From the NCBI GenBank assembly GCA_903918755.1, contig CAIXFN010000081.1, positions 186,001-250,000 on the forward strand: a stretch of DNA of 64,000 nucleotides, read 5' to 3'. The stretch is from an uncultured Pedosphaera sp. (GTDB lineage: Bacteria; Verrucomicrobiota; Verrucomicrobiia; Limisphaerales; Pedosphaeraceae). The notes under the pieces are model-generated. The model made no database searches. It was not told where the DNA came from and saw only the letters and a program-made list of their open reading frames with translations. Positions 30,347 through 46,770 of the stretch are shown here, piece after piece. Position 1 is the stretch's first letter, and each line of letters starts with the position of its first letter. A program made the position numbers and the translations under genes.

Positions 30347-30985
30347 CTAAGTGAGCCGGGCCCGAAATGCCCGGCAGGCCGCGGCAATATCCGGCGCATT
30401 CAAAATCGCCGAAACCACGCAAATTCCCCGCGCCCCCGCCGCCACTACCTCATCCACGTTTCCCAGATGAATCCCGCCAATCGCGAACCACGGAATCCGC
30501 ACATTTTCCGCCGCCCACCGCACATAATCCAGCGTGACCGGCCGGGCCGTCGGCTTGGTGCCCGTCGCAAACACCGGTCCAATTGCAATATAAGCCGGCC
30601 CGGCCGCCAGCGCCCGCCGCGCCTGCTCCGGCGCATGCGTGCTCAACCCCAGCGCCGGGCCCGCACCGGGACCCACCAATTCCGCCACCTGCGTATGCCC
30701 CGCATCAAAGAAATCCTCCTGCCCCAAATGGCAAAACTCCACCCCCAATTCCCGGGCCACCTCCAAATGATCATTAATCACCAACGCAACCCCCGCCGCC
30801 CGGGTCACCGGCAAAATCTCCGCCGCCATCCGCCGCACCGCCTCCACCGTTTCACCCTTCGCCCGCAATTGAATCAAATCCGAGCCCCCCAGACACAACT
30901 CCCGCGCCACCTCCGCCGGCGCCCGCCCGTGCAGGTAGGCGGTATCCACAAAAGTATAAAGCCGACAGTCCGAAAGCAATTTCAC
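30347..30985 (-). CDS. thiE: Thiamine-phosphate synthase
   Basis: 212 residues. It joins HMP-pyrophosphate and THZ-phosphate to thiamine phosphate in the cytoplasm. A TIM-barrel with the family motifs is seen: DLIQLRAKGET (substrate-binding Gln/Arg/Lys), LVINDHLEVARELG, CHLGQEDF, LGLSTHAPEQARRAL, YIAIGPVFATGTKP and FAIGGIHLGNVDEVVAAGARGICVVSAI. It stands alone; no other thiamine gene and no TPP riboswitch is seen upstream. The 264-bp gap after its start holds a dispersed repeat. Confidence 0.95.
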   Translation of the reverse strand: MKLLSDCRLYTFVDTAYLHGRAPAEVARELCLGGSDLIQLRAKGETVEAVRRMAAEILPVTRAAGVALVINDHLEVARELGVEFCHLGQEDFFDAGHTQVAELVGPGAGPALGLSTHAPEQARRALAAGPAYIAIGPVFATGTKPTARPVTLDYVRWAAENVRIPWFAIGGIHLGNVDEVVAAGARGICVVSAILNAPDIAAACRAFRARLT

Positions 30986-31249: not shown

Positions 31250-34200
31250 ATGACACCATTGCCCACCGCCGACCGTGCCGCCGACCGCTGGTCAAATGCC
31301 CGCCGCGTTCGCCGCGCCGCCATCGCCTGGCTGCCGATTTTTCTGCTGGCCGGAATGGCCACCCAGGTGCTTGGGGCAACTCGCACCTGGTCGGGCGCTT
31401 CCGCCGGGTCTTCGTTCTGGTCCGATCCGGCCAACTGGGTCGGCTCCGTGGCGCCCGCCACCGGGGACAGCCTCGTTTTCCCGGCCTCGGCCGCCCGCCT
31501 CAATAATGTGAACGATTATGCGGCGGGCACGGTCTTGGGATCCATTACCTTTACCGGCGCGGGGTACGCCTTGAGCGGTGCCAATACGCTCGCGCTGACC
31601 AATGGCATCAGCGCGAAAAACGCGACGCTGGCGAACCAAATCGGGTTCCCGCTGCAATTGAATGCCGCCCAAATATTCGCCACGACCGCGGCGGCCAATT
31701 CGCTCTCTTTTAACGGTTCAATCTCTCTGAATGGTTTTGACCTCACCTTCAACGTGCTGGGCGCCCTTAATGCTTCGGGTGGGATTACCGGTACCGGGAA
31801 TGTCAACAAGACCGGGAGCGGCTCGCTCACATTGTCCGGGGCGAATGCCTTTGGCGGCATCACCACGGTGCAGGCCGGCACCTTGTTCGTGCAGCATCCC
31901 CAGGCCCTGGGCGCCTCCGGTAGCGGCACCGTCGTGATTTCCGGAGCGCAGTTGGATATTAGTGGCGTGTCGGTGGCCAATGAATCTTTGGCGTTGAATG
32001 ACGGAGCCATTCTCAGTGTCGTGGCCACCGGATCGGGCACTTGGTCGGGTCCGATCGTTTTGAATGGCACCGTCAATTTCCAGGCGCAATCCGGGCATTC
32101 GTTGACGTGCAGTGGAGTCATCTCCGGTCCCGGTGGCCTGACGCTCAATGGCGGGACAATTTATCTGATAGGCGGCTCCGGCAACAGTTACCTGGGCACG
32201 ACCTTGGTGGCCTCCGGAACCGTGATGTTGAACAAATCGATTGGGACTTCGATTCCTTCGGGGCCGTTGATAATCGGCGACGGCGTGGGCGGACCTGGCA
32301 CCGCCGTGGTCCGGGAAGCCAACAGCTCGGATCTTGGTTCCATGGTGCCGATTACCATCAATCGCTCCGGGTTGCTGGACCTCAACGGCTTTTCCGATGT
32401 CTGTGGGGCGCTGACCCTCAACGGCGGCGGAGTGACCACAGGTTCGGGGAACCTGTCCTTGAATGGAAACTTGCTGGTGAATGGAAGTCCCACCAGTCAG
32501 TCCTACTTTTCCGGCAATCTCCACCTGACCTTAACCCCCGCGATTGACGTGGAAACCGTCACGAATGCCCTCGTCCCGGAATTCCTGCTGAACGCCAGCA
32601 TCAGCGGCAATTTCGGCTTCAACAAATCCGGATTGGGGACGCTGTCTCTGGCGGGCCTCAACAGCTTCACCGGCCCCGTGCAGGTAAACACCGGAACTTT
32701 GGCGGTGAACCACCCGCTCGCCTTGGGGGCGACGAATTCCGGCACCACGGTCAGTTCCAACGCAATCCTGCAAGTGAACGCCGCGGTTCCCGCCGAGCCC
32801 CTGACGCTCAATGATGGGGCCATTCTCAGTGTGGCCACCAACGTGACCGGCGGCAGTTGGGGCGGAACCATTGTTCTCAATGGCACCGCTGCCATTACGC
32901 CCGGGGTTGGCCAGTCGTTCACCAGCAGCGGGGTGATTTCCGGTTCCGGCGGACTTACCCTGCGCGGCGGAACCAATTACCTTTTCGGAGGCAGCGGCAA
33001 CACCTACGCCGGCACCACGTGGGTGGCTTCCGGCACCGTGATTTTGAACAAATCGGTGGGGACGGCGATTCCTTCCGGACCGCTGATTATTGGCGACGGC
33101 GTTGGCGGACCGGGCACCGCCGTGGTCCGGGAAGCCAACAGCTCGGATATCGGCTCCACGGTGCCGATTACCATCAATCGCTCCGGGTTGTTGGACCTCA
33201 CCGGCTTCTCCGATGTCTGTGGGGCGCTGACGCTCAACGGCGGCGGAGTGACCACAGGTTCGGGGAACCTGTCCCTGAGTGGCAACCTGCTCGTGAATGG
33301 AAGCCCCACCAGTCAGTCCTACTTTTCCGGCAATCTGCATCTGACCTTAACCCCCACGATCGACGTGGAAACCGTGGCCAATGCTCTCGTCCCGGAATTC
33401 CTGCTGAACGCCAGCATCAACGGCAATTTTGGCCTGACCAAAACCGGATTGGGCATGCTTTCGCTGGCTGGCCTTAGTACCTTCACCGGACCGGTGCAGG
33501 TGAATGCCGGAACTTTGGCGGTGAACCACCCGCTCGCCCTGGGGGCGACGAATTCCGGCACCACGGTCAGTTCCAACGCGATCCTGCAAGTGAACGCCAC
33601 CGTTCCCGCCGAACCGCTGACGCTCAATGATGGTGCCATTGTCACTGTGTCCACCAGCGTGACCGGCGGCAGTTGGGGCGGAACCATTGTTCTCAATGGA
33701 ACCGCTGCCCTTACCCCCGGGGTTGGCCAGTCATTCACCTGCAGCGGGCTGATTTCCGGTTCCGGCGGACTTACCCTGCGCGGCGGAACCAATTATCTGT
33801 TCGGGGGCAGCGGCAACACGTACGCCGGCACCACGTGGGTGGCTTCCGGCACCGTGATCATGAACAAAACGGTGGGGACGGCGATTCCTTCCGGTCCACT
33901 CATTATTGGCGACGGCGTTGGCGGACCGGGCACCGCCGTGGTCCGGGAAGCCAACAGCTCGGATATCGGCGCGACGGTGCCGATTAACATCAATCATTCC
34001 GGGTTGCTGGACCTCACCGGCTTCATGGATTTGTGTGGCTCGCTGACGTTGAATGGCGGCGGAATCACCACGGGTTCCGGAGCCTTGTCGCCCGGTGGCG
34101 GCATCTTGGTGAATGGGAGCACGAATTCGCAGTCCTTCATTTCGGGCAATTTGAATCTGCCCACCTCGCCGACCATCGATGTCGAAACGGTGAGCAACGC

Positions 34201-37012
34201 ACTGATCCCGGAGTTAAATCTTAACGCGACGACAAAGGGCGCACACGGCCTGACGAAAACCGGCCCGGGCACCCTGCTATTGGGCGGTACCAACAACTTC
34301 ACCGGTCCAGTGCAGGTGAATGCGGGAACGCTGGTGCTGGCAAACTCTACCGCGCTCGGCACCACCAATTTCGGCACCACGGTGAATGGCACGGCTATCC
34401 TCCAACTTAACGGGGTCAGTGTTACCAATATCGCCTTGAGCCTCAACGGCAACCATAACCACGGCCTGCTCGGTCCGGGAACCCTGACCGCTTCGGGTGG
34501 TTCGAATGCGTGGTCGGGTCCCATCACGCTGGTGGTTGATACGTCCATCTTCGTTCAGAACTCCAATGACGTCTTGAACCTGACCGGTTCCATCGGCGGA
34601 TCGGGCGGATTCGACCAGTGGGGTTTGGGCACGCTGATTTTGAGCGGTCCGACCCCCAACACCTATACCAATCTCACGCGGACGATGACCGGCTCGCTGC
34701 TGCTGGCCAAGACCGTGCCCAATGCGGCGATTCTCGGGCCGTTGTCACTCAGCGTCGGCGCTCCTCCCGGGATTGCCGCCAGCGCTCAAATGACCGGTCT
34801 CTTTCAGTTCGGCCCCGTCGCGCCCCTCACCGTTGGCGTCGGCGGGCGGTTTGACTTCAATGGTTTCTCGGGAAACATGGGCTCGCTCAATGGCGCGGGA
34901 AGCGTCTATTTGGAAGGCGCGACGCTGGGGGTTGGCAATGATCAGGCCGACTCCGCTTTTAGCGGTGGCCTTTTTGGCTCCGGCGGCCTCGACAAGTTCG
35001 GTGCGGGGAGGATGCGCCTCGCTGCGGGCAGCCTGATTCAAATTCCCGCCCTGACCGTGTGGAATGGCACCCTGGCAATGGATGCAACGGCTCCGACCAC
35101 GGCGGTTTACACAAAAGTCAACGGTGTTTTGAGCGGCAGTGGCACGGTCGGAAACCTGACGATTGACACGGGCGGCGTGGTGCAGCCAGGCGACCTGACG
35201 AAGCGCGGTACGTTAACTGTGAACGGCAATTTGGGCGCCAATTCGGCCGGTAGCTATGACTTCACGCTCAACGGACCAGTTCCCCAATTCAATTTCGGCA
35301 ACCTCTTGGTCCACGGGACAACCCACCTCGAGGGCAGATTGTCGATCGGGCTAGGCTTCCTGCCAACCGGCGGACAGCCGATCGATTTGATCCGGAACAG
35401 CACGCCCGTGTCGGGGACTTTTGCCGGGCTACCGGAAGGCGCCATCACCAACCTGAGCGGGTTGCCGTTCCAGATCAGTTACGTCGGCGGACCGGGCGGC
35501 CACGATGTGACGTTGACCGAGGTAAATCTCGGGGCCTCGGTCGCCGGACTTTCGTACCCGGGCGTCCGAGGCGCGACCAATCTGGCCCCCAATGATTGTC
35601 ACGACCTCTACCTGAGCGTGAGCAACAGCTCCGGCGCGCCGCTGACCAATCTGTTCGCCAGCTTGACCACAAGCAGTTCGGGCGTTGCGATCACGCAGCC
35701 CTACTCCGTGTATCCCACCATTCCCGCCGGCGGATTTGGGACCAATCTCACGCCCTTTCAGATTAGCCTGCTGCCGTCGTTCCTCTGCGGCCAGACGGTG
35801 CGCTACCAGTTGACTTTGTCCAACGCCACTTTCGGCCCGATGGAAATCTTCTCCGCCACGGCCCCCGGCGGCCAGTCGAACGGCGCGCCCGTCGAGTTTG
35901 CCAACCACAATGCCGCCACCCTGCCCGATGTTGGCACCACCGATATCCCGATCCTGGTAACCAATTTCAGCGGCATGGTCAGCGCCGTGACCGTGGCTTT
36001 GTTTGTGACGCACCCGTTTGACCAGGATTTGAGTTTTTACTTGATTGCGCCGAATGGAACCACGGTGCGCCTGGCCGGCAATGATGGTTCCAGTGGCCAT
36101 GATTTCGGGACTTTCTGCGGCACTAGCCAGCGCACCACCTTTTCTGACAGCGCCATCCTGTCAATCGACAACGGCCAGGCGCCATTTACCAATACCTACC
36201 GTCCGCAGCAACCACTCGCCGCCTTTTCGGGCATGTCCCCCGCGGCGGCCAATGGCCTCTGGACCCTGCGGATCGTGGATGGCTTTCCCGGCTCCGTCGG
36301 CGTATTTCGTTGCGCCGCGCTTTTTCTATCATCCGAAGTCTGTGGCACCGGGAGTGGCGCTTGCCTGCTGTGTCCCAACACCATCATCGCCGGAGCGTTG
36401 GACCCACTCAGCCCCACGCAAACCACCCTGACGCGTGTCGGGACCAACTCCATTTGCGGCTCCCTTCCGTTGTGCCCGGGTCCCGGCGAAAGTAATCAAT
36501 ACTATCAAGTCCATACGTTTCAAAACGGGCCGCAAGACGCCTGCATCACCGTCACTCTGCAGTCGTCGGCGGCGGATGTTTTCAGCGCGGCATATGCCCC
36601 TAATTTCAGCCCGACGGCGGTCTGCAGTGGTCTGATCGGCTTTTCCGGCGACAGCACGCTCAGTGGTTTCCTCACCAACGCGCCCTTCACCCGCACCTAT
36701 TCCTTCAATGTAACATCCAACGAGGTATTTGATGTGACGGTGAACGGCGTGGGCGGATCGTACGGACCCTATCAATTGAGCGTGACGGGCGGGAGTTGCG
36801 CGCCTTCCTTGCGCATCACTTCTGCGTCCTCAAGTAGGGTAGAACTCGACTGGCCGACCTCAGCTCCCGGCTACCGTTTGGAATTCAATTCCGGGCTGGC
36901 GGCCTCAAAATGGACCACGGTCACCAACCAACCCACCATCTTCGCCGGCCAATATTCCGTCACCAATGCCGCCACCGGCAGCGCCCGTTTCTTTCGTCTC
37001 TCCAAGCCCTGA
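31250..37012 (+). CDS. Giant autotransporter-associated beta-strand repeat protein with P-domain
   Basis: 1920 residues. Basic N-terminus, signal peptide (about 24-43, ending VLGA) and a TWSGASAGSSFWSDPANW start typical of PATR proteins. The body is built of repeats such as LTKTGLGMLSLAGLSTFTGP with VQVNAGTLAV, in three near-identical in-frame 272-residue units (816 bp). At about 1545-1695 lies a proprotein-convertase P-domain-like region (VTVALFVTHPFDQDLSFYLI, GNDGSSGHDFGTFCGT, NGLWTLRIVDGFPG). The last 60 residues end in GSARFFRLSKP, like the RFYR tail of the 1582-7227 protein. No C-terminal membrane barrel is seen, so secretion by another route is likely. Role unknown; adhesin or surface layer are options. 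Confidence 0.85.
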   Translation: MTPLPTADRAADRWSNARRVRRAAIAWLPIFLLAGMATQVLGATRTWSGASAGSSFWSDPANWVGSVAPATGDSLVFPASAARLNNVNDYAAGTVLGSITFTGAGYALSGANTLALTNGISAKNATLANQIGFPLQLNAAQIFATTAAANSLSFNGSISLNGFDLTFNVLGALNASGGITGTGNVNKTGSGSLTLSGANAFGGITTVQAGTLFVQHPQALGASGSGTVVISGAQLDISGVSVANESLALNDGAILSVVATGSGTWSGPIVLNGTVNFQAQSGHSLTCSGVISGPGGLTLNGGTIYLIGGSGNSYLGTTLVASGTVMLNKSIGTSIPSGPLIIGDGVGGPGTAVVREANSSDLGSMVPITINRSGLLDLNGFSDVCGALTLNGGGVTTGSGNLSLNGNLLVNGSPTSQSYFSGNLHLTLTPAIDVETVTNALVPEFLLNASISGNFGFNKSGLGTLSLAGLNSFTGPVQVNTGTLAVNHPLALGATNSGTTVSSNAILQVNAAVPAEPLTLNDGAILSVATNVTGGSWGGTIVLNGTAAITPGVGQSFTSSGVISGSGGLTLRGGTNYLFGGSGNTYAGTTWVASGTVILNKSVGTAIPSGPLIIGDGVGGPGTAVVREANSSDIGSTVPITINRSGLLDLTGFSDVCGALTLNGGGVTTGSGNLSLSGNLLVNGSPTSQSYFSGNLHLTLTPTIDVETVANALVPEFLLNASINGNFGLTKTGLGMLSLAGLSTFTGPVQVNAGTLAVNHPLALGATNSGTTVSSNAILQVNATVPAEPLTLNDGAIVTVSTSVTGGSWGGTIVLNGTAALTPGVGQSFTCSGLISGSGGLTLRGGTNYLFGGSGNTYAGTTWVASGTVIMNKTVGTAIPSGPLIIGDGVGGPGTAVVREANSSDIGATVPININHSGLLDLTGFMDLCGSLTLNGGGITTGSGALSPGGGILVNGSTNSQSFISGNLNLPTSPTIDVETVSNALIPELNLNATTKGAHGLTKTGPGTLLLGGTNNFTGPVQVNAGTLVLANSTALGTTNFGTTVNGTAILQLNGVSVTNIALSLNGNHNHGLLGPGTLTASGGSNAWSGPITLVVDTSIFVQNSNDVLNLTGSIGGSGGFDQWGLGTLILSGPTPNTYTNLTRTMTGSLLLAKTVPNAAILGPLSLSVGAPPGIAASAQMTGLFQFGPVAPLTVGVGGRFDFNGFSGNMGSLNGAGSVYLEGATLGVGNDQADSAFSGGLFGSGGLDKFGAGRMRLAAGSLIQIPALTVWNGTLAMDATAPTTAVYTKVNGVLSGSGTVGNLTIDTGGVVQPGDLTKRGTLTVNGNLGANSAGSYDFTLNGPVPQFNFGNLLVHGTTHLEGRLSIGLGFLPTGGQPIDLIRNSTPVSGTFAGLPEGAITNLSGLPFQISYVGGPGGHDVTLTEVNLGASVAGLSYPGVRGATNLAPNDCHDLYLSVSNSSGAPLTNLFASLTTSSSGVAITQPYSVYPTIPAGGFGTNLTPFQISLLPSFLCGQTVRYQLTLSNATFGPMEIFSATAPGGQSNGAPVEFANHNAATLPDVGTTDIPILVTNFSGMVSAVTVALFVTHPFDQDLSFYLIAPNGTTVRLAGNDGSSGHDFGTFCGTSQRTTFSDSAILSIDNGQAPFTNTYRPQQPLAAFSGMSPAAANGLWTLRIVDGFPGSVGVFRCAALFLSSEVCGTGSGACLLCPNTIIAGALDPLSPTQTTLTRVGTNSICGSLPLCPGPGESNQYYQVHTFQNGPQDACITVTLQSSAADVFSAAYAPNFSPTAVCSGLIGFSGDSTLSGFLTNAPFTRTYSFNVTSNEVFDVTVNGVGGSYGPYQLSVTGGSCAPSLRITSASSSRVELDWPTSAPGYRLEFNSGLAASKWTTVTNQPTIFAGQYSVTNAATGSARFFRLSKP
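31850..34297 (+). repeat. Tandem in-frame repeat, three units of 816 bp
   Basis: The same sequence recurs at an exact 816-bp offset. For example the CGTG of the NKS/NKT-coding segment lies at 32221, 33037 and 33853, and the GGCGACGGCG(T/G)(T/G)GGCGGAC segment recurs near 32277, 33093 and 33909. The distance is divisible by 3, so the frame is kept. Unit borders are approximate; a diverged fourth start is visible near 34300. Confidence 0.9.
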
Positions 37013-37295: not shown

Positions 37296-38336
37296 TCACC
37301 TCGTGTTACGTTCCAGCAACCGCCACAACCACGGCCAGCGCGGCACCCCGCGCACCAGTAACTCCGGCACCATCGGCATAAAAAGGACTTGCTGCAACCG
37401 CCACGCCCACGCCAACCGCCGCGCAAATCGCGCATCACAATCCCGCGCCACCGCTTGCCGCGCTTCGGTCCAACCCATCTCCCCCGCACTCCACGCCGCC
37501 AGCGGCCCTATCGCTACTTCGGCGGATTCAAACGCCATCGACATCCCGTTCCCCGTCACCGGCGGGATCATGGTGATGCTATCTCCCACCGAACATTCCT
37601 CCGTTTGCTCCGCCCGCCGGGGACGCAACGACAGCCCCGCGACGGAACAGAAGGAGGCCTCGTCAAAGCCCGCTCCCGCCAACCGTTCCCGGAGTTGCGA
37701 GCCATCCAGTCCGCGCAATGCCTCTTCCCACCGCACCGGCGCGGAGCCAGCTCCCGCCCGTCGCCGAAAGATGCCGCAAATATTCACTTCCCCCTGGCCG
37801 AGGGAGCTGATTCCCACATAACCACCGGGAGCCAGGTGCATTTCCAAATCCGCCTGGAGCGGAACATTCCGAGCGTGGATCTTCAGCCCCAACCACTGCC
37901 AGCGACCGCCCCCCGGCGCGAGCCGCCGTCCCGTGGCCCGCACCCAGCCTTCGGTCCCGACCCCATCACGCCACCGGTCCCCCTCCCGCAATTCCCCGCC
38001 GAGCCGGCGAAATTCCCGCGCCAGCACCGCGTCCAGCGCATACCGCGAAATCGCCAGTGCCGGCTCCGCCAGGGTTTGTGTGGGTGCCTGGGCGCGCGGC
38101 GAATGAAACCGGGTGGTCCGGGCGGTCACCGCCCCGGCCGCCATCACGGGTTGGAGCAAGCCCAATCGGACCAGCGTCTCCCGGCCCCGGCCGCTGATAA
38201 ATTCACCGCACACCCGGTGCCGCGGATAGCTGCCCGCCTCCCGGATCATCACCGGCACCCCCTGCTGCCGCAGCCCGATCCCGAGCGTCAAACCCGCCAA
38301 CCCACCACCCACGATCGTAATCGGTTTGCGGCTCAT
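37296..38336 (-). CDS. FAD-dependent oxidoreductase (geranylgeranyl-reductase/hydroxylase-like)
   Basis: 346 residues. N-terminal dinucleotide fold ITIVGGGLAGLTLGIGLRQQ, then HRVCGEFISGRGRETLVRLG, typical of geranylgeranyl-reductase-like flavoproteins, and the second FAD motif near VGDSITMIPPVTGNGMSMAF. The product would be a soluble flavoenzyme that oxidises, reduces or hydroxylates a lipid-like substrate. It is the third gene of a type III PKS, methyltransferase and flavoprotein set (4 nt after the methyltransferase), which points to tailoring of the polyketide, as SrsC does in the Streptomyces srs operon. The exact reaction is not shown by sequence. Confidence 0.85.
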   Translation of the reverse strand: MSRKPITIVGGGLAGLTLGIGLRQQGVPVMIREAGSYPRHRVCGEFISGRGRETLVRLGLLQPVMAAGAVTARTTRFHSPRAQAPTQTLAEPALAISRYALDAVLAREFRRLGGELREGDRWRDGVGTEGWVRATGRRLAPGGGRWQWLGLKIHARNVPLQADLEMHLAPGGYVGISSLGQGEVNICGIFRRRAGAGSAPVRWEEALRGLDGSQLRERLAGAGFDEASFCSVAGLSLRPRRAEQTEECSVGDSITMIPPVTGNGMSMAFESAEVAIGPLAAWSAGEMGWTEARQAVARDCDARFARRLAWAWRLQQVLFMPMVPELLVRGVPRWPWLWRLLERNTR

Positions 38337-38339
38337 GGC

Positions 38340-39038
38340 TCAAATCCCGTCTGCGCGCACCGCCACAAAAGCATGACTGAAAAGCCGCGCGCCCTCTTCC
38401 CGCAGCCGCCATTCCGGTCCCACCGGCCATAACCCCGACAACTCGGTCCCCACAAAACCGGCGCGCACACTGACCACTGCATCGTGCCGCGTCACGTCAT
38501 TGCAACCGATGCATCCCAGCAGACGGCTGGCCGCGAGGGCCACGGCCGAGCGCCGGGGTTCACAGACCGCCAGGAGCTTGGTCCGCCGCGCTGCCAGGGC
38601 CAAAAGCTCCGCCAGCGAACCCGGTTGAAAATGATGTAGGAACAAATTGGCCACGAGGATATCGGTCTGCGCCTCCGGCCGCTCCAGCCAGTCAAACACA
38701 TCGGCCGTAATCACTTCCACGGTCCAGCCGAGCGCTCCAAACGCCGCCCGCGTTTCCGGGCGCACCGCCTCCCGGCGATCCAGCAACCCCACGGACACTC
38801 CCGGCCAGCGGGGCGCCAACCGCCGTGCCAGTTCCAGCAGCAACCGCCCATCCCCCGCCCCCAACTCCACCACCCGCCGGGGTGGCCTCCCGGCCGTCGC
38901 GTCCCCAATCAAGCGACCAAGTATCCCCACATTGCCCATGATGCGATTGATGCGGGTCAAATCCCGGCGCGAACCGACCGCCCGCGGATCCTCCGCCGGC
39001 AGTTCATCCAGCCATTCCGGTTCCACCCGGCGTTTCAT
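38340..39038 (-). CDS. Class I SAM-dependent methyltransferase
   Basis: 232 residues from the ATG at 39038, which overlaps the polyketide synthase stop by 4 nt (ATGA). SAM-binding motif I is VVELGAGDGRLLLELARRL, with motif II-like acidic residue in VGLLDRRE, ITADVFDWL and the post-motif DILVANLFLHHFQPGSLAELL, as in class I methyltransferases acting on small molecules. The acceptor is probably the product of the adjacent type III polyketide synthase (O- or C-methylation). It is unrelated in fold to the membrane methyltransferases SrsB/BpsB of comparable operons. Confidence 0.85.
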   Translation of the reverse strand: MKRRVEPEWLDELPAEDPRAVGSRRDLTRINRIMGNVGILGRLIGDATAGRPPRRVVELGAGDGRLLLELARRLAPRWPGVSVGLLDRREAVRPETRAAFGALGWTVEVITADVFDWLERPEAQTDILVANLFLHHFQPGSLAELLALAARRTKLLAVCEPRRSAVALAASRLLGCIGCNDVTRHDAVVSVRAGFVGTELSGLWPVGPEWRLREEGARLFSHAFVAVRADGI

Positions 39039-40123
39039 TCCGCAGCCGCCCCCGCTTGATCCACCGCCAGGAGTGTCCCATGACAACTGAATCCCGCGCC
39101 AAAAGAACCCATCCACCAGGTCCCCGGCGGTGCGCCCCCCGCGAGGGCCCGCTCCAGGGCAAAGTAAACACAGGGGCTGCTGATATTGCCAAAATCCCGC
39201 AGCACCTCCGCGCTCCAACGGGTGTCCTCCGCGGACAGCCCAAAGCGTTCCTGCAACGCCAGCAAAACTTCGCGACCACCCGCGTGCCAGATCCAGGCCG
39301 CAATGTCCGCCTGCCGCAGTCCCGCCTCCGCCAGCATGCGCTCCACCAGGGCCCCCGAATGCCGGGCCGCCAATTCCGGCACTTCGGGACTGAGGATGTT
39401 CCGCAACATCCCGTGGCGTTGTTCAAACCGCAGCAATTCACGGTCCTCCGGCGCCAAAGCCGTCCCCGCCGCGCGCCATTCCACCCGCCGACCACTCGGG
39501 CCCGCCTCCGGGGCCAGCACTGCCGCGCCCGCGCCATCGCCGAACAGACACGCGCTGATCAATACTCCCGGGTCATCATCCAGGTACAGCGCCGCACTGC
39601 AAATCTCCACGCACACCGACAACACCCGGCGACAACGTCCCGCCGCGATCAGCGCTTCCCCCGTCCGCAGATTCGGCAACGCCGCGCCGCACCCCTGCCC
39701 CACCAGGTCCAAGCCCAGAACGTCCGCCCGCAAGCCCAGCAACTCACTCACATAACTCGTCAACCCCGGACAAAGATACCCTGTGCAAGTGCTGATGATG
39801 AGACCATCGATTTCCTCCGCCGCACAACCGGCCGACCGCAACGCCTTCCCTGCCGCCGCCGCCGCCAGGGCCGGCGCGTGCCGCGCAAATCGCGCGTGCA
39901 GGGTGTCCGGATCCAGGGCAAACACGTCGTGCAACGAGTCGAGGGACAAATGCCGTGACTCAATCCCATTCCCGCCCCCCAGCACCTTGCGCAAAATCGA
40001 CCGCGACCGCGCCGACAGCCCGGCAAACTGCGGCGCCGCCTGGAGCGCAACCCATCCCTCGCTTTGTTTGTAGCGATTGACCGGCACCGCGGTTCCCAGA
40101 CCTGTGATAAACATGGCGGACAA
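39035..40123 (-). CDS. Type III polyketide synthase (chalcone/stilbene synthase-like)
   Basis: 362 residues. Catalytic triad visible: Cys145 in GQGCGAALPN, His280 in WIWHAGG and Asn313 in DFGNISSP; thiolase-type N-terminal half with LIISTCTGYLCPGLT and C-terminal GSFGAGFSCHG. Homodimeric enzymes of this family extend an acyl-CoA starter with malonyl-CoA and cyclise it to resorcinols, pyrones or similar phenolics. Bacterial relatives next to a methyltransferase and a flavoprotein make methylated phenolic lipids. It is the first gene of a coupled three-gene operon. Starter length and ring type cannot be read from the sequence. Confidence 0.93.
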   Translation of the reverse strand: MSAMFITGLGTAVPVNRYKQSEGWVALQAAPQFAGLSARSRSILRKVLGGGNGIESRHLSLDSLHDVFALDPDTLHARFARHAPALAAAAAGKALRSAGCAAEEIDGLIISTCTGYLCPGLTSYVSELLGLRADVLGLDLVGQGCGAALPNLRTGEALIAAGRCRRVLSVCVEICSAALYLDDDPGVLISACLFGDGAGAAVLAPEAGPSGRRVEWRAAGTALAPEDRELLRFEQRHGMLRNILSPEVPELAARHSGALVERMLAEAGLRQADIAAWIWHAGGREVLLALQERFGLSAEDTRWSAEVLRDFGNISSPCVYFALERALAGGAPPGTWWMGSFGAGFSCHGTLLAVDQAGAAAE

Positions 40124-40652: not shown

Positions 40653-40902
40653 GCACGGGGTATTTCGCCCTCTGGAGACCGTCGAACTGCCGGAGCGCGC
40701 GGAAGTGGAATTTGAGCCTCGCCCAGTGAGCGGGAAGCAAGAAACTTGGCGCGAATTGGACGGCCTTTACGCGATCCTGGTTAGCTCTACCATCTGGAGC
40801 AAAGACATCAAATCTTCTCCCGGACTTGTCCCAACGATTCCAGTCGTGACAGCCAATTGCCAAAATGAGGGCATTTGGCCCGCAAATTGTTCAGACCGAT
40901 AG
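40627..40902 (+). CDS. DUF104/AF2212-type antitoxin, 3' end replaced (chimeric)
   Basis: 91 residues from the ATG at 40627. The first 50 match the DUF104 antitoxin family (MKTIHAVYEHGVFRPLETVE, then LPERAEVEFEPR, ELDGLYAIL). Family members normally continue with a short charged tail such as RY-x-T-G-x-x-D-x-A-x-R-H-N-E. Here the reading frame runs instead into unrelated sequence that is antisense to the end of the DUF4276 gene (from 40808). The join near 40775-40807 looks like the edge of an insertion that removed the original 3' end. The translated tail is probably not functional. No PIN toxin gene is present. Confidence 0.6.
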   Translation: MKTIHAVYEHGVFRPLETVELPERAEVEFEPRPVSGKQETWRELDGLYAILVSSTIWSKDIKSSPGLVPTIPVVTANCQNEGIWPANCSDR

Positions 40903-41500
40903 CCGCTGCTGCTGGAGCGCCAACCCGTACTTTATTCCGTTCATAAATCGGGACATGACGAATAATTCGCTTGCTTGGGGCGGTCGTGGGTCCTTCATTA
41001 ATCTGTTCCGGGGCCAAGCCGTAAACCTCCTTGCTCAGCGCACTGATGCCCGAGGCGGAATTGGCAATGCGCCTCTCCAATTCGGCCAAATCGCAATAGA
41101 GCAAGGCTTCAAACTCGTGCAATTGGATAAAAGGAAAGAACCGTGGCTCGTTAAATTCAGCGAGCAAGGCATTTTCCAAAACATTAACGCGTTCAACCGG
41201 GTGCGATTTCTTGCCGGCTTCTACCCAGCCGGGAAATTGCGGGGGTAAAGCATACAAATCGACCATCGTGGTAAATCTTGCTTCCGCATTCCGGTCCTCC
41301 TTTATCAACCTACCTACGTCCCCGCGGATTTTTTCAAAGTCCAGAATTCCGCCGCGTTTGCCCAATTTACGATTCGTGACCACCACGCGGGAGCGAACTT
41401 CCACAGAATAACCGGCCAGATGTGGTTTCAATGCGCGGTCGGCAAATTCCTTTTCGGCCTGTCCCTCGACCGTTATGTAAAGCCGTATCCACTTACTCAC
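40808..41500 (-). CDS. DUF4276 family protein (TOPRIM-like nuclease candidate)
   Basis: 230 residues. It starts with RLYITVEGQAEKEFADRALK, in which the VEG-x-(A/T)-E-x-x-F acidic motif matches the TOPRIM-like DUF4276/DUF4435 group. TTMVDLYALPPQFPGW supplies the second acidic motif (D-x-Y), and FPFIQLHEFEALLYCDLAEL is the strongly conserved HEFEALLF block of DUF4276. The start overlaps the ATPase stop by 4 nt. In OLD- and PARIS-like defence systems an ABC-type ATPase works with a TOPRIM nuclease, fused or split; this pair has the split arrangement. Defence function is inferred. Confidence 0.85.
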   Translation of the reverse strand: MSKWIRLYITVEGQAEKEFADRALKPHLAGYSVEVRSRVVVTNRKLGKRGGILDFEKIRGDVGRLIKEDRNAEARFTTMVDLYALPPQFPGWVEAGKKSHPVERVNVLENALLAEFNEPRFFPFIQLHEFEALLYCDLAELERRIANSASGISALSKEVYGLAPEQINEGPTTAPSKRIIRHVPIYERNKVRVGAPAAAAIGLNNLRAKCPHFGNWLSRLESLGQVREKI

Positions 41501-42594
41501 GGCAGCCCCCCAAGTTCGTTCTTTTCCCAGAGTTGCCCCAAAGTGTATTCCTCTAACCAGTCTTTGAGCTTGGTCGCATTCTGGCGTTCAAAAAGGGTTT
41601 CACCATCGCGGTGATTGACCACAATTACTTGTTCAGGAGTCAACTCGTCGACCAAAAGCGAGGCTTGCGTGGAAACAATCAACTGCGCGCGCTGAGCGGC
41701 CTCATGAAGGAGACTGGCAAGTAACTTTATGGCGTACGGATGCAATCCTAACTCGGGCTCATCAATAACAATAGTTGCGGCTGGTTTTGGCTGGAGCAGC
41801 AACGTGGCCAAACAAATATAGCGTAAAGTCCCATCTGAAAGTTGGTGAGGATAGTATAATAAATCCGAATAACGATCTTTCCATAACAATTGTGTTTGGC
41901 CCGGAACAACCTCCTTGAGCACAAAAGCGCCAAAGAAGGGAGCCACCTGTCTCACGGTTTCTTCAATCTGGGCGAAGTGCTCGGGATTTGCGGCGCCCAT
42001 GCGCATCAAAAACGCGGCCAGATTGGCGGCGTTGCCCTGCAACACGTCGTTATCCACGATGTTGCACAAGCCCATGACCGGGGCGGAAGGTGAGGTGTCG
42101 TGAAAGTGGTAAACGCGCCAGTCTCGAATTGTCTCGTACACCCATTTCAGGGCCTGAATCTTCTGATAACGAGCGACATTACTTTCCTTGTGTCCACTGC
42201 CTCGGTCATTTTCAACCGCCCCATAATGTGGGCCATCGAACGGCGCCGATTCTTGCGCAAAAAAAAGCGAACGATCATCCGCGGCGCGGAGTGTGAATTT
42301 GTATTCGTTCTTTCCGAATTTCAATTGGGCCTTGAATTCGGGGGTCACTTTCATGCCGCGAAAAAGGAAAGCATCCGCGCGCCCGCGGGCACTGGTGTAA
42401 TTCTGCAGCCCCTTGTTGGGATCCATTAAATTACCAAGCAATTCAAAAAACCGGATAAAGTTGGTCTTGCCCGAGCCGTTAGCGCCGATCAGCACGTTGA
42501 GGCCCCTGCTCAAATCAAAATCCTTGAGTTCTCGGATGGACTTGTACCCCGACAGGGAAATTCGCTCTAATACTCGGCTTGTCTGGGCACCCAT
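41497..42594 (-). CDS. AAA/ABC-type ATPase (RecF/OLD-like) of a two-gene defence-type module
   Basis: 365 residues. Walker A GANGSGKTNFIRFFELLGNL near residue 37, then a D-loop region; an ABC-like signature YYPHQLSDGTLRYICLATLL and Walker B AATIVIDEPELGLHPYAIKL, followed by LIVSTQASLLVDELTPEQVI (H-loop region with Gln where His is common). This is the AAA_21 layout typical of OLD, RloA and PARIS AriA ATPases. It is operonic with the DUF4276 gene (4-nt overlap). Base composition is visibly lower in GC than the flanks, suggesting transfer. Confidence 0.87.
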   Translation of the reverse strand: MGAQTSRVLERISLSGYKSIRELKDFDLSRGLNVLIGANGSGKTNFIRFFELLGNLMDPNKGLQNYTSARGRADAFLFRGMKVTPEFKAQLKFGKNEYKFTLRAADDRSLFFAQESAPFDGPHYGAVENDRGSGHKESNVARYQKIQALKWVYETIRDWRVYHFHDTSPSAPVMGLCNIVDNDVLQGNAANLAAFLMRMGAANPEHFAQIEETVRQVAPFFGAFVLKEVVPGQTQLLWKDRYSDLLYYPHQLSDGTLRYICLATLLLQPKPAATIVIDEPELGLHPYAIKLLASLLHEAAQRAQLIVSTQASLLVDELTPEQVIVVNHRDGETLFERQNATKLKDWLEEYTLGQLWEKNELGGLP

Positions 42595-43778: not shown

Positions 43779-46148
43779 CTAGCAACACCGGTTCACGCCC
43801 TGAAACCGCCGCTCGGTGACCTCCACATATAATTGTTCCCGGCTCGGTCCCGCGGCTTCCGCCACCGCCTGCCCCGCATGCTCCGAATGGCCGCATGTCG
43901 ACGCCACCGCCAGGCGTTGGGCCCGCTCCAATTGCGCCTCCCCCGAAAGTTCCCGAGCCAGACCAAATCCCAATGCCAGCAATCCCACCACCGGCACGGG
44001 CCGCGCTTCGGCCACCGCGTAACCCGGCAGCCAAACCGTGGGCGATTCCTGCAGGTTCACCCGCCCCCGACGCCGGAGCAACCCGACCCAAGCCCAAAGG
44101 CTCAGGGCCACGATGGCGGTAACCAGCACCAGGAAAAATCCGGTGACCACCGCATCCAGTTCCGCGTTGAAATGTTTGACGCGATTCGTATGCCAGGCCA
44201 CTTCCGCCGCTTGAACGGCCGCCGCAACTCCGCCCGACTGCGCGGCGGTAACGGCTGCTTGCAAAGCGGGTAAACCGTCGTCCAGGACCTTGGCGCCGGA
44301 CAGAAAACCAATGCGGGGATCCGCGTGGAAAATCTTTTCCAAGCCGGCCGTCATGGTCACCGTGAGCAGGACGAGCAAGGGACCGAGCGTCACCCAAGCC
44401 AGCATCGGCCGGCCCTTGGCCGGGGCCGGATCGCGCAACTGCATCTTGAGAATAACGGTGGTGGCCAGACAGAGTGCAATCGTCGCCAGCAGTTGATTGG
44501 CGATGCCAAAAATCGGCCAGAGCGAATTGATGCCACCCAGCGGATCCCGCACGCCCTGGATCAGGAAGTAACCCCAACCGCCCACAATCAACCCGCTCGC
44601 CAGCAGGTTGGCTCCGAAATTCCGGGTGTTGCCCAATGGCTTCCAAAACGTGCCCAACAAGTCCTGCACGAGGTAGCGTCCCACGCGTGTTCCAGCATCC
44701 ATCGTGGTGAGAATGAACAGCGCCTCGAACATGATGGCAAAGTGGTACCACAATCCCAGCCAGCGTCCGTGCGTGACCTGCGAAAAGATGTTGGCCATGC
44801 CCACCGCCAGGGTCGCCGCTCCCCCCGTCCGACCATACAGCGTTTTCTCATGCATCTCGTCAGCCAGGGCACTCATTTGCTCGGGCGTGACCTGGAAACC
44901 CGCCGCCTGCACCTTGGCCACGGTGTTCGCGGCAATCGCCGCCGGCGGGGCGCCGGTAGCCGGGACATTCATGCTGAGGTAAACCCCGGGTTCCAGTGTG
45001 CAGGCGGCAATCAGGGCCATGACGGCCACCAGGGATTCCAGGCACATCGCGCCATAACCCACCGGCCGCGCATAACTCTCCCGCGTCAGGATTTTGGGCG
45101 TGGTGCCGCTGGCAATCAGCGAATGGAAACCAGAGATGGAACCGCACGCGATCGTGATAAAGCAGAAGGGAAAGAGCTTGCCCGCAAACACCAAACCGGA
45201 GCCGTCGATGAATTTCGTGATGGCCGGCATCTTCAACGCCGGGAGGACCAGGAGCACCCCGATCGCCAGGGCCAGGATCGTGCCCAGTTTCATGAAAGTG
45301 CTCAGGTAGTCGCGCGGGGCCAGCAGCAACCACACCGGCAGCACGCTGGCGGCCACGCCATACCCGATGATACCCCAGGCGAGCTGCGGCGCGGTCAGCG
45401 TAAACAGCCCCGCCCAATGCGGGTCCCCATGGACGAACTGCCCGCCCCAGACCGCCAGCAGCAGCAGGACCACGCCAAGGACCGAGGCTTCCAACACCTT
45501 GCCGACCCGGACGTAGCGCAGATAACCGCCCATGAACATCGCAATGGGGATGGTGGCTCCCACTGTAAACACCCCCCAGGGACTCTCCGCCAGCGCTTTC
45601 ACCACCACCAATCCCAGCACCGCCAGCAGGATGATCATGATGGCCAGGATGGCGGTGACCGCGAACGCCCCCGCCACTGGATTAAGTTCCTCCTTCACCA
45701 TCTGCCCGAGCGACTTCCCATTCCGGCGCAATGAACAAAACAAAATGACGAAGTCCTGCACCGCCCCGCCTAGGACCACCCCGATCAGGATCCAGATCGC
45801 CCCCGGCAAATAACCAAACTGGGCGGCCAGCACCGGACCCACCAGCGGCCCCGGACCGGAGATGGCCGCGAAATGATGACCGAAGACGATGAACCGATTC
45901 GTTTTCACAAAATCCCGGCCATCATCGTTCACCTCACAGGGCGTGGCGCGGCGGTCATCCAGCATCAGCACCCGGACCGCAATCCACTTGGAATAAAACC
46001 GGTAGCCGATGGCATACGTGCAAACCGCGGCGATCAGTAGATAGGCGGAATTCACCGGAGCACCGCGCTCGATCGCGAGCACGGCATAGGCCCCCGCCCC
46101 GGCCAACGACAACAGCAGCCAGAGCAGGACGGAAATGGGCTTCTTCAT
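43779..46148 (-). CDS. cstA: CstA-family carbon starvation / pyruvate-peptide transporter
   Basis: 789 residues from the ATG at 46148 (MKKPISVLLWLLLSLAGAGA); the upstream ATG at 46223 lies inside the regulator gene. Many membrane helices carry the family motifs: YRFYSKWIAVRVLMLDDRRATP, DFVKTNRFIVFGHHFAAISG, GPGPLVGPVLAAQFGYLPGA, GGAVQDFVILFCSLRRNGKS and PFCFITIACGSISGFHSLIA. CstA/BtsT proteins import pyruvate or peptides under carbon limitation. The C-terminal 100 residues extend past the core. Preceded by an XRE-cupin regulator gene (4-nt gap), which probably controls it. Confidence 0.94.
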   Translation of the reverse strand: MKKPISVLLWLLLSLAGAGAYAVLAIERGAPVNSAYLLIAAVCTYAIGYRFYSKWIAVRVLMLDDRRATPCEVNDDGRDFVKTNRFIVFGHHFAAISGPGPLVGPVLAAQFGYLPGAIWILIGVVLGGAVQDFVILFCSLRRNGKSLGQMVKEELNPVAGAFAVTAILAIMIILLAVLGLVVVKALAESPWGVFTVGATIPIAMFMGGYLRYVRVGKVLEASVLGVVLLLLAVWGGQFVHGDPHWAGLFTLTAPQLAWGIIGYGVAASVLPVWLLLAPRDYLSTFMKLGTILALAIGVLLVLPALKMPAITKFIDGSGLVFAGKLFPFCFITIACGSISGFHSLIASGTTPKILTRESYARPVGYGAMCLESLVAVMALIAACTLEPGVYLSMNVPATGAPPAAIAANTVAKVQAAGFQVTPEQMSALADEMHEKTLYGRTGGAATLAVGMANIFSQVTHGRWLGLWYHFAIMFEALFILTTMDAGTRVGRYLVQDLLGTFWKPLGNTRNFGANLLASGLIVGGWGYFLIQGVRDPLGGINSLWPIFGIANQLLATIALCLATTVILKMQLRDPAPAKGRPMLAWVTLGPLLVLLTVTMTAGLEKIFHADPRIGFLSGAKVLDDGLPALQAAVTAAQSGGVAAAVQAAEVAWHTNRVKHFNAELDAVVTGFFLVLVTAIVALSLWAWVGLLRRRGRVNLQESPTVWLPGYAVAEARPVPVVGLLALGFGLARELSGEAQLERAQRLAVASTCGHSEHAGQAVAEAAGPSREQLYVEVTERRFQGVNRCC

Positions 46149-46152
46149 CGGC

Positions 46153-46770
46153 TTAGCGGTAAATGTCCACGAGCGACACCAGGGCCTCCCCCTTGCCGAT
46201 ATTAATGATGGCGTGCGGCACATCGGCGCGGTAGCTCACCGAGTCGCCGCGTTCCAGATCCTCGGCATCCTCCGCCGATTGCACCCGCACCCGGCCGCTT
46301 TGCACCGTCAGGAATTCGCGCGTCCCGGCGAAGTGCGGCGCACTCCGCAACGCCCCGCCTTCTTTGAGTTGCACCTCATAGAACTCGACATCTTTTTCGA
46401 GATTCAACGGCGAAAGCGTTCGGATCTGGCAATCCTGGTCCGACCGGTAATGGTACGCCCGGTCATTCGCCCGGATGACGACAATGGAGGACATGGCCCC
46501 CGGCGTTTCCACAAACTCCCCGAGGGACATGCCAAAAGCGCGCGCGATCCGGAACGCCACCGCCAGCGTGGGGTTGGCCTGGTTGCGCTCAATCTGGCTC
46601 AGCATCGAGCGGCTCACACCAGAGGCATTCGCCAGCGTGTCCAGCGACCAACCCCGCTCGGCGCGGAGATGTTTGAGCCGACGGCAAAGCTGCTCGCCCG
46701 CCCATTCCCCGGCGGGATGGGCTACCGGGGTCGCGGGGGGCGGGGTACGGGTTGTTTTCGAGGCGGGCAT
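46153..46770 (-). CDS. XRE-family regulator with cupin domain
   Basis: 205 residues. HTH_3 at about 32-88 (LRAERGWSLDTLANASGVSR, SMLSQIERNQANPTLAVAFR) and a C-terminal cupin at about 115-205 (HFAGTREFLTVQSGRVRVQS, GDSVSYRADVPHAIINIGKG). This is the SutR/PuuR-like type, in which the cupin binds a small effector. The Pro/Thr-rich first 25 residues are probably disordered. It is 4 nt upstream of cstA and in the same direction, so it likely regulates its own operon and the transporter. Effector unknown. Confidence 0.9.
   Translation of the reverse strand: MPASKTTRTPPPATPVAHPAGEWAGEQLCRRLKHLRAERGWSLDTLANASGVSRSMLSQIERNQANPTLAVAFRIARAFGMSLGEFVETPGAMSSIVVIRANDRAYHYRSDQDCQIRTLSPLNLEKDVEFYEVQLKEGGALRSAPHFAGTREFLTVQSGRVRVQSAEDAEDLERGDSVSYRADVPHAIINIGKGEALVSLVDIYR

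Follow-up and report, generated by a model that had tools for sequence, protein, structure and literature searches.

The combination of a type III polyketide synthase (PKS), a methyltransferase (MT) and an FAD flavoprotein is already known from the cyanobacterial hid operon, from an operon of planctomycetes and from the srs operon of Streptomyces. The srsABC genes encode a PKS, a methyltransferase and a flavoprotein for methylated phenolic lipids, and the srs methyltransferase is a membrane-bound enzyme of another family (isoprenylcysteine-type). The hidABC genes form the hierridin operon of Cyanobium (PMC8086630, PMC10896814); a variant with the order hidC>hidA>hidB is known from cyanobacteria as well (PMC8086630). 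The planctomycetal operon is a tight trio in the order MT-FAD-PKS. Planctomycetal PKSs produced in C. glutamicum yielded pentadecyl- and heptadecylresorcinols; when the MT and FAD proteins of G. maris were co-expressed, one methyl group was added, probably on carbon, and the role of the FAD protein was left open (PMC10896814, Milke et al. 2024). Two Lacipirellula PKSs in that study cluster with no characterised enzyme. In the Verrucomicrobiota, a type III PKS cluster has already been reported by antiSMASH (PMC9865893), and we found no report of its product in the literature.

The window, by which we mean the whole stretch of 64,000 nucleotides analysed here, covers bases 186001–250000 of contig 81 in a 7.2 Mb genome whose relatives are Pedosphaera/Limisphaerales records of the Verrucomicrobiota. 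It holds the gene set of the hid and planctomycetal operons, with an MT, an FAD oxidoreductase and a type III PKS together. The three genes run on the minus strand from 40123 to 37296 in the order PKS-MT-FAD (Table 1), and the open reading frames bear out the three-gene operon that an earlier, sequence-only reading had placed at 37296–40123. That reading was also right that the MT start (39038) overlaps the PKS stop (39035) in an ATGA. The gap between the MT stop and the flavoprotein start is 3 nt (38337–38339) and not 4 nt as it had stated. At the level of sequence, the three genes are arranged as a single transcription unit. The PKS is likelier to start at ATG 40114 than at the listed TTG 40123, because its homologues begin with MFITGLG; from the ATG the protein has 359 residues and the catalytic residues become C142/H277/N310. 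The PKS gene gives the only PF00195 match in the source genome. No gene for an acyl-CoA ligase, an acyl carrier protein (ACP) or a ketosynthase adjoins the operon there.

Table 1. Coordinates of the operon genes and of the neighbouring genes discussed in the text (positions in the window).
Feature	Position	Strand	Remarks
Type III PKS-like synthase	39035..40123	minus	362 aa from TTG 40123; catalytic C145/H280/N313; FGAGF replaces GFGPG
Likelier PKS start codon ATG	40112..40114	minus	MFITGLG..., as in homologues
Class I SAM methyltransferase	38340..39038	minus	232 aa; motif I VVELGAGDGRLL; PF13649, 34 bits, cut-off 27
FAD flavoprotein, PHBH/halogenase/GGR superfamily	37296..38336	minus	346 aa; GGGLAG, PRHRVCGEF, ATGRR and PPVTGNGMSMAFESAE motifs
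1920-aa repeat protein	31250-37012	plus	PATR autotransporter repeats + P-domain; between operon and ThiE
ThiE (thiamine phosphate synthase)	30347..30985	minus	genome's only copy

A close PKS homologue (at least 49% identity) was found in 25 of the 57 relatives searched with the PKS. When the 25 loci of order relatives were fetched, 22 had PKS-MT-FAD on one strand; the remaining three had no detectable partner genes, and one of these lies at a contig end. The same arrangement recurs in 75 of 80 named loci in a species collection, Betaproteobacteria and Nitrospirota among them, and PKS identities across the two sets are 53–79%. The operon is not due to chance, since genes, order and strand agree in both sets. 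Across the order, 75 of 196 genomes carry the flavoprotein gene, as do 44 of the 111 good ones. Other Verrucomicrobiia carry the PKS gene last, as MT-FAD-PKS (22/29 loci, PKS identity 43–50%). Records titled Betaproteobacteria, Rhodanobacteraceae, Lysobacter and Nitrospirota again have PKS-MT-FAD, with PKS identities of 60–66% and a longer flavoprotein of about 400 residues that is about 26% identical to that of the window. The titles of such records can be wrong where they come from metagenome bins; the Caballeronia copy comes from a complete plasmid, where the order is PKS-MT-FAD-ACP-ketosynthase. The proteobacterial copies are sporadic, as none was found in 298 other Pseudomonadota genomes drawn evenly. 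The trio is thus co-conserved across three phyla. This strong conservation supports the sequence-only reading in treating the genes as one operon of a PKS with two tailoring enzymes, a reading that a gene set lacking conservation would have undermined.

The PKS matches PF00195 with 52.9 bits and PF02797 with 41.5 bits (cut-off 27 each), with partial coverage of both models, and its best 60 sequence matches in the PDB are all type III PKSs. The structure model has a pLDDT of 85, and its top 50 Foldseek matches are likewise all type III PKSs (TM 0.82–0.88, 21–28% identity). The modelled fold is that of a type III PKS. The catalytic residues C145, H280 and N313 were correctly read earlier, and they are invariant in 44 members of the clade. 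The triad alone is not diagnostic of a type III PKS, because FabH (KAS III) has the same one.

The C-terminal signature loop GFGPG is absent from the window PKS, which has FGAGF instead. At the loop site, all 44 members of the window clade have Ala, whereas each of the 25 canonical sequences with coverage there has Pro. At a position that is Glu in most canonical enzymes, members of the window clade carry His or Phe, with a single Tyr. A site-by-site comparison showed that a CTGY-CPG motif also marks the clade. Asn242 is invariant, with Arg at 241 in 40 of the 44 members; both lie near the F265 gate of CHS by alignment, a placement that depends on the alignment within a variable loop. C205, a residue lining the acyl tunnel of PKS18, corresponds to a Cys (C175) in the window PKS, and T197 of CHS corresponds to an Ala. 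These two residues suggest a roomy pocket that would fit an alkyl chain. PKS18 of M. tuberculosis (1ted) has the fold, the triad and the tunnel Cys in common with the window PKS at about 28% identity, and differs from it in having a GFGPG-type loop (FGPG). To our knowledge, PKS18 has no MT or flavoprotein partner.

In two maximum-likelihood trees, the window PKS groups with its class-wide relatives and with the proteobacterial and nitrospirotal copies, apart from DpgA, RppA, PKS11, BcsA, PKS18 and the algal and plant enzymes. The tree rooted with a single FabH had a long branch on the root and gave the separation a support of 89/77; it was repeated with four FabH outgroups, and the canonical clade (DpgA, RppA, PKS11, PKS18 and CHS-type enzymes) then excluded the window PKS with a support of 100/100. 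The references sampled from plasmid searches were DpgA, BcsA, Deinococcus, Psychrobacter, Novosphingobium and Paenibacillus sequences; no cyanobacterial or planctomycetal PKS was among the plasmid-search matches listed, and the trees were built without HidC, the G. maris PKS and other planctomycetal PKSs. By sequence, the window PKS belongs to a lineage that has no characterised member among everything sampled. The PKS phylogeny that the sequence-only reading had proposed as a check therefore gave a separate lineage lacking GFGPG, and the grouping with an enzyme of known product that would have spoken against that reading did not appear among the enzymes sampled. We think it possible, and put it forward tentatively, that this is a deep type III PKS-like lineage outside all characterised ones, recognisable by CTGYxCPG, LRN and FGAGF and served by an MT and a DG-less flavoprotein dedicated to it. 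Such a lineage would make a lipid class not yet described, would be widespread in Verrucomicrobiota and would have passed to Proteobacteria and Nitrospirota.

A lone PKS-like sequence from the same phylum (L163 2955–4046, from genome G116) has FGAGM at the loop and an unstable place, at the base of the window clade or on the FabH side depending on the tree. Judged by these features, it is a possible intermediate.

The loop and the root position also bear on what kind of condensation the enzyme performs. A synthase that functions like KAS III (FabH, PqsD, DarB) would join two acyl partners in one condensation and would not be iterative. The FGAGF loop and the missing Glu match FGAGLTWG of FabH rather than GFGPG, the FabH-rooted trees put the window clade outside all canonical type III PKSs, and the NCBI name of a relative is '3-oxoacyl-ACP synthase III C-terminal domain-containing protein'. 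On the other side, the H-x-GG and GN(I/L/M)SS motifs are those of type III PKSs, as are the two Pfam domains and the fold, and the window PKS scores 88 bits with the FabH model, below the 157 bits of its match to the DpgA model. We regard a KAS III-like function as unlikely, though it deserves to be kept in mind.

Of the known operons, hidABC of cyanobacteria and the MT-FAD-PKS operon of planctomycetes are the nearest, and srs is not. The srs analogy drawn in the sequence-only reading holds for the shared logic of PKS, MT and flavoprotein, and for its remark that the srs MT is of another type; it does not hold as the closest comparison, since hidABC and the planctomycetal operon are closer and have known alkylresorcinol products (PMC10896814, PMC8086630). 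The window MT is a soluble class I enzyme in contrast to the membrane MT of srs, and SrsA, which is placed in the PKS10/11 clade (PMC8086630), is not near the window PKS. The hid operons share all three gene types with the window, and the hidC>hidA>hidB variant matches its gene order. The planctomycetal operon has the same tight trio, and it also belongs to PVC bacteria (PMC10896814); its MT-FAD-PKS order differs from that of the window and the order relatives and is found in the class-wide relatives.

From this likeness the locus might be taken for one more ordinary operon of the hidABC/planctomycetal family, acquired by descent or by transfer, that makes hierridin-type O-methylated hydroxy-alkylresorcinols. 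The gene types speak for it, as do the MT-FAD-PKS order that class-wide relatives have in common with hidABC and planctomycetes (PMC10896814) and the hidC>hidA>hidB order (PMC8086630). The synthase itself argues against it. In published trees HidC groups with ArsB/C, PKS18 and eukaryotic enzymes (PMC8086630, Larsen et al.), so its place is within the canonical clade, from which the window PKS is excluded. The PKS of Stieleria maiorica, read from a published deletion primer, ends in IEAALIG with the canonical Glu in place of the His or Phe of the window clade; the planctomycetal PKS thus appears canonical, and the window PKS with its FGAGF loop is of another lineage. A tree in which the window clade joins the canonical group containing other PKSs linked to MT and FAD genes (Deinococcus, Psychrobacter, Novosphingobium and Verrucomicrobiota copies, taken as a proxy for the HidC clade) was rejected with a p-AU of 6e-11, a value that is optimistic because the group was named after the tree had been seen. 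Based on the published HidC placement and the S. maiorica primer, which are both indirect, we lean to the view that the window PKS is not a member of the HidC clade. With HidC compared by its published placement only, the window PKS appears on sequence grounds to lie outside the clade of the known hid and planctomycetal synthases, and ordinary membership in that family seems to us quite unlikely.

A DpgA-like enzyme, which would use no fatty starter and build a small dihydroxyphenyl acid by condensing malonyl-CoA units, is very improbable: DpgA (NF042429) is the best NCBIfam model for the PKS, but the match of 157 bits is far below the cut-off of 425 and generic, as other type III PKSs tested score 116–175 bits and a true DpgA 644, so the identity was rejected; dpgB, dpgC and dpgD are also absent beside the PKS gene, and DpgA falls in the canonical clade.

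Canonical type III PKSs also travel with an MT and an FAD protein on plasmids of Deinococcus (L145 2998–5979), Paenibacillus (L148 2959–6280) and Psychrobacter (L146 2989–5812), and FGPG is present in the Deinococcus and Psychrobacter enzymes. The trio has therefore formed on more than one PKS lineage. With two or more separate synthase lineages carrying it, a product predicted from gene content alone, such as 'hierridin-like', can be misleading.

The MT has no close curated model (best NCBIfam match 59 bits, cut-off 243). Its N-terminal motif EPEWLDELPxxDPRAxxSRRDLxRIN recurs in the proteobacterial copies. The family is too broad for O- and C-methylation to be separated from the MT sequence. 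The flavoprotein matches PF01494 with 38 bits (cut-off 22). It had been described as geranylgeranyl-reductase-like (GGR), a description that is weak: TIGR02032 gives 62.5 bits against a cut-off of 158.8 over residues 8–125 only, and the best solved matches of its structure model are flavin (aromatic) hydroxylases and halogenases, with a GGR-like protein at rank 30. The matches include 3-hydroxybenzoate 6-hydroxylase, PqsL, Bmp2 and squalene epoxidase, all remote in fold (TM about 0.6–0.78, 14–21% identity). The flavoprotein resembles phenol hydroxylases but is missing the PHBH-type DG motif, which serves NAD(P)H and FAD; ATGRR or ATGKK stands at that place in the aligned homologues. The halogenase motif WxWxIP is absent from the sequence and from the homologue alignment. 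We infer an oxidising enzyme that is fed by another reductase; a double-bond reductase is possible.

We put the chance slightly better than even that the three enzymes form a pathway to a modified lipid of aromatic or pyrone type. The proposal builds on what the analysis shows, namely gene identity, operon structure, conservation, the PKS fold and the separate PKS lineage. For the substrates, the number of extensions, the mode of cyclisation, the methyl position and the flavoprotein reaction, we infer the following steps. The PKS would load an acyl starter on C145, probably a long-chain fatty acyl-CoA or acyl-ACP, carry out two or three extensions with malonyl-CoA, and release an alkylresorcinol or alkylpyrone after cyclisation. 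The MT would then methylate the ring on O or C, and the flavoprotein would oxidise it by hydroxylation toward a hydroquinone or quinone, with electrons presumably supplied by another reductase because the DG motif is missing. By analogy, our best guess for the product is a methylated, oxidised alkylresorcinol or alkylpyrone. The analogy is one of gene content only, because the PKS lies outside the clade of characterised synthases sampled and lacks GFGPG. The methylated phenolic or quinone lipid proposed in the sequence-only reading is reasonable as a product class, and the addition 'not yet known in this phylum' was too strong for clusters, given the one found by antiSMASH (PMC9865893).

ACP and beta-ketoacyl-ACP synthase genes adjoin the PKS gene on the Novosphingobium plasmid pLA3 (L147 2236–5879) and the Caballeronia plasmid pSBC2-3 (L141 8004–12711). 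Such neighbours hint at a dedicated acyl-ACP starter, and those beside the Caballeronia trio are consistent with an acyl starter.

The Limisphaerales/Pedosphaera group is known mostly from soil and fresh-water metagenomes, and the trio is a small, clean target for its first polyketide-lipid product. The missing GFGPG loop offers a natural test of the role of this loop in chain length and cyclisation.

When a further gene conserved with the trio was sought, ThiE alone came up. It lies immediately downstream of the flavoprotein gene in 18 related loci; in the window, the two are separated by the 5.8-kb autotransporter-like gene, which therefore seems to have been inserted in the window lineage. 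ThiE is probably a housekeeping neighbour and not a member of the pathway. Elsewhere in the window, overlapping reading frames on the minus strand (40808–42594) encode a DUF4276 protein and an AAA_21 ATPase; together they match the two components of HEC-01, a candidate anti-phage system, at 221 bits (B) and 435 bits (A). The carbon starvation protein CstA is encoded at 43779–46223, also on the minus strand (PF02554, 764 bits).
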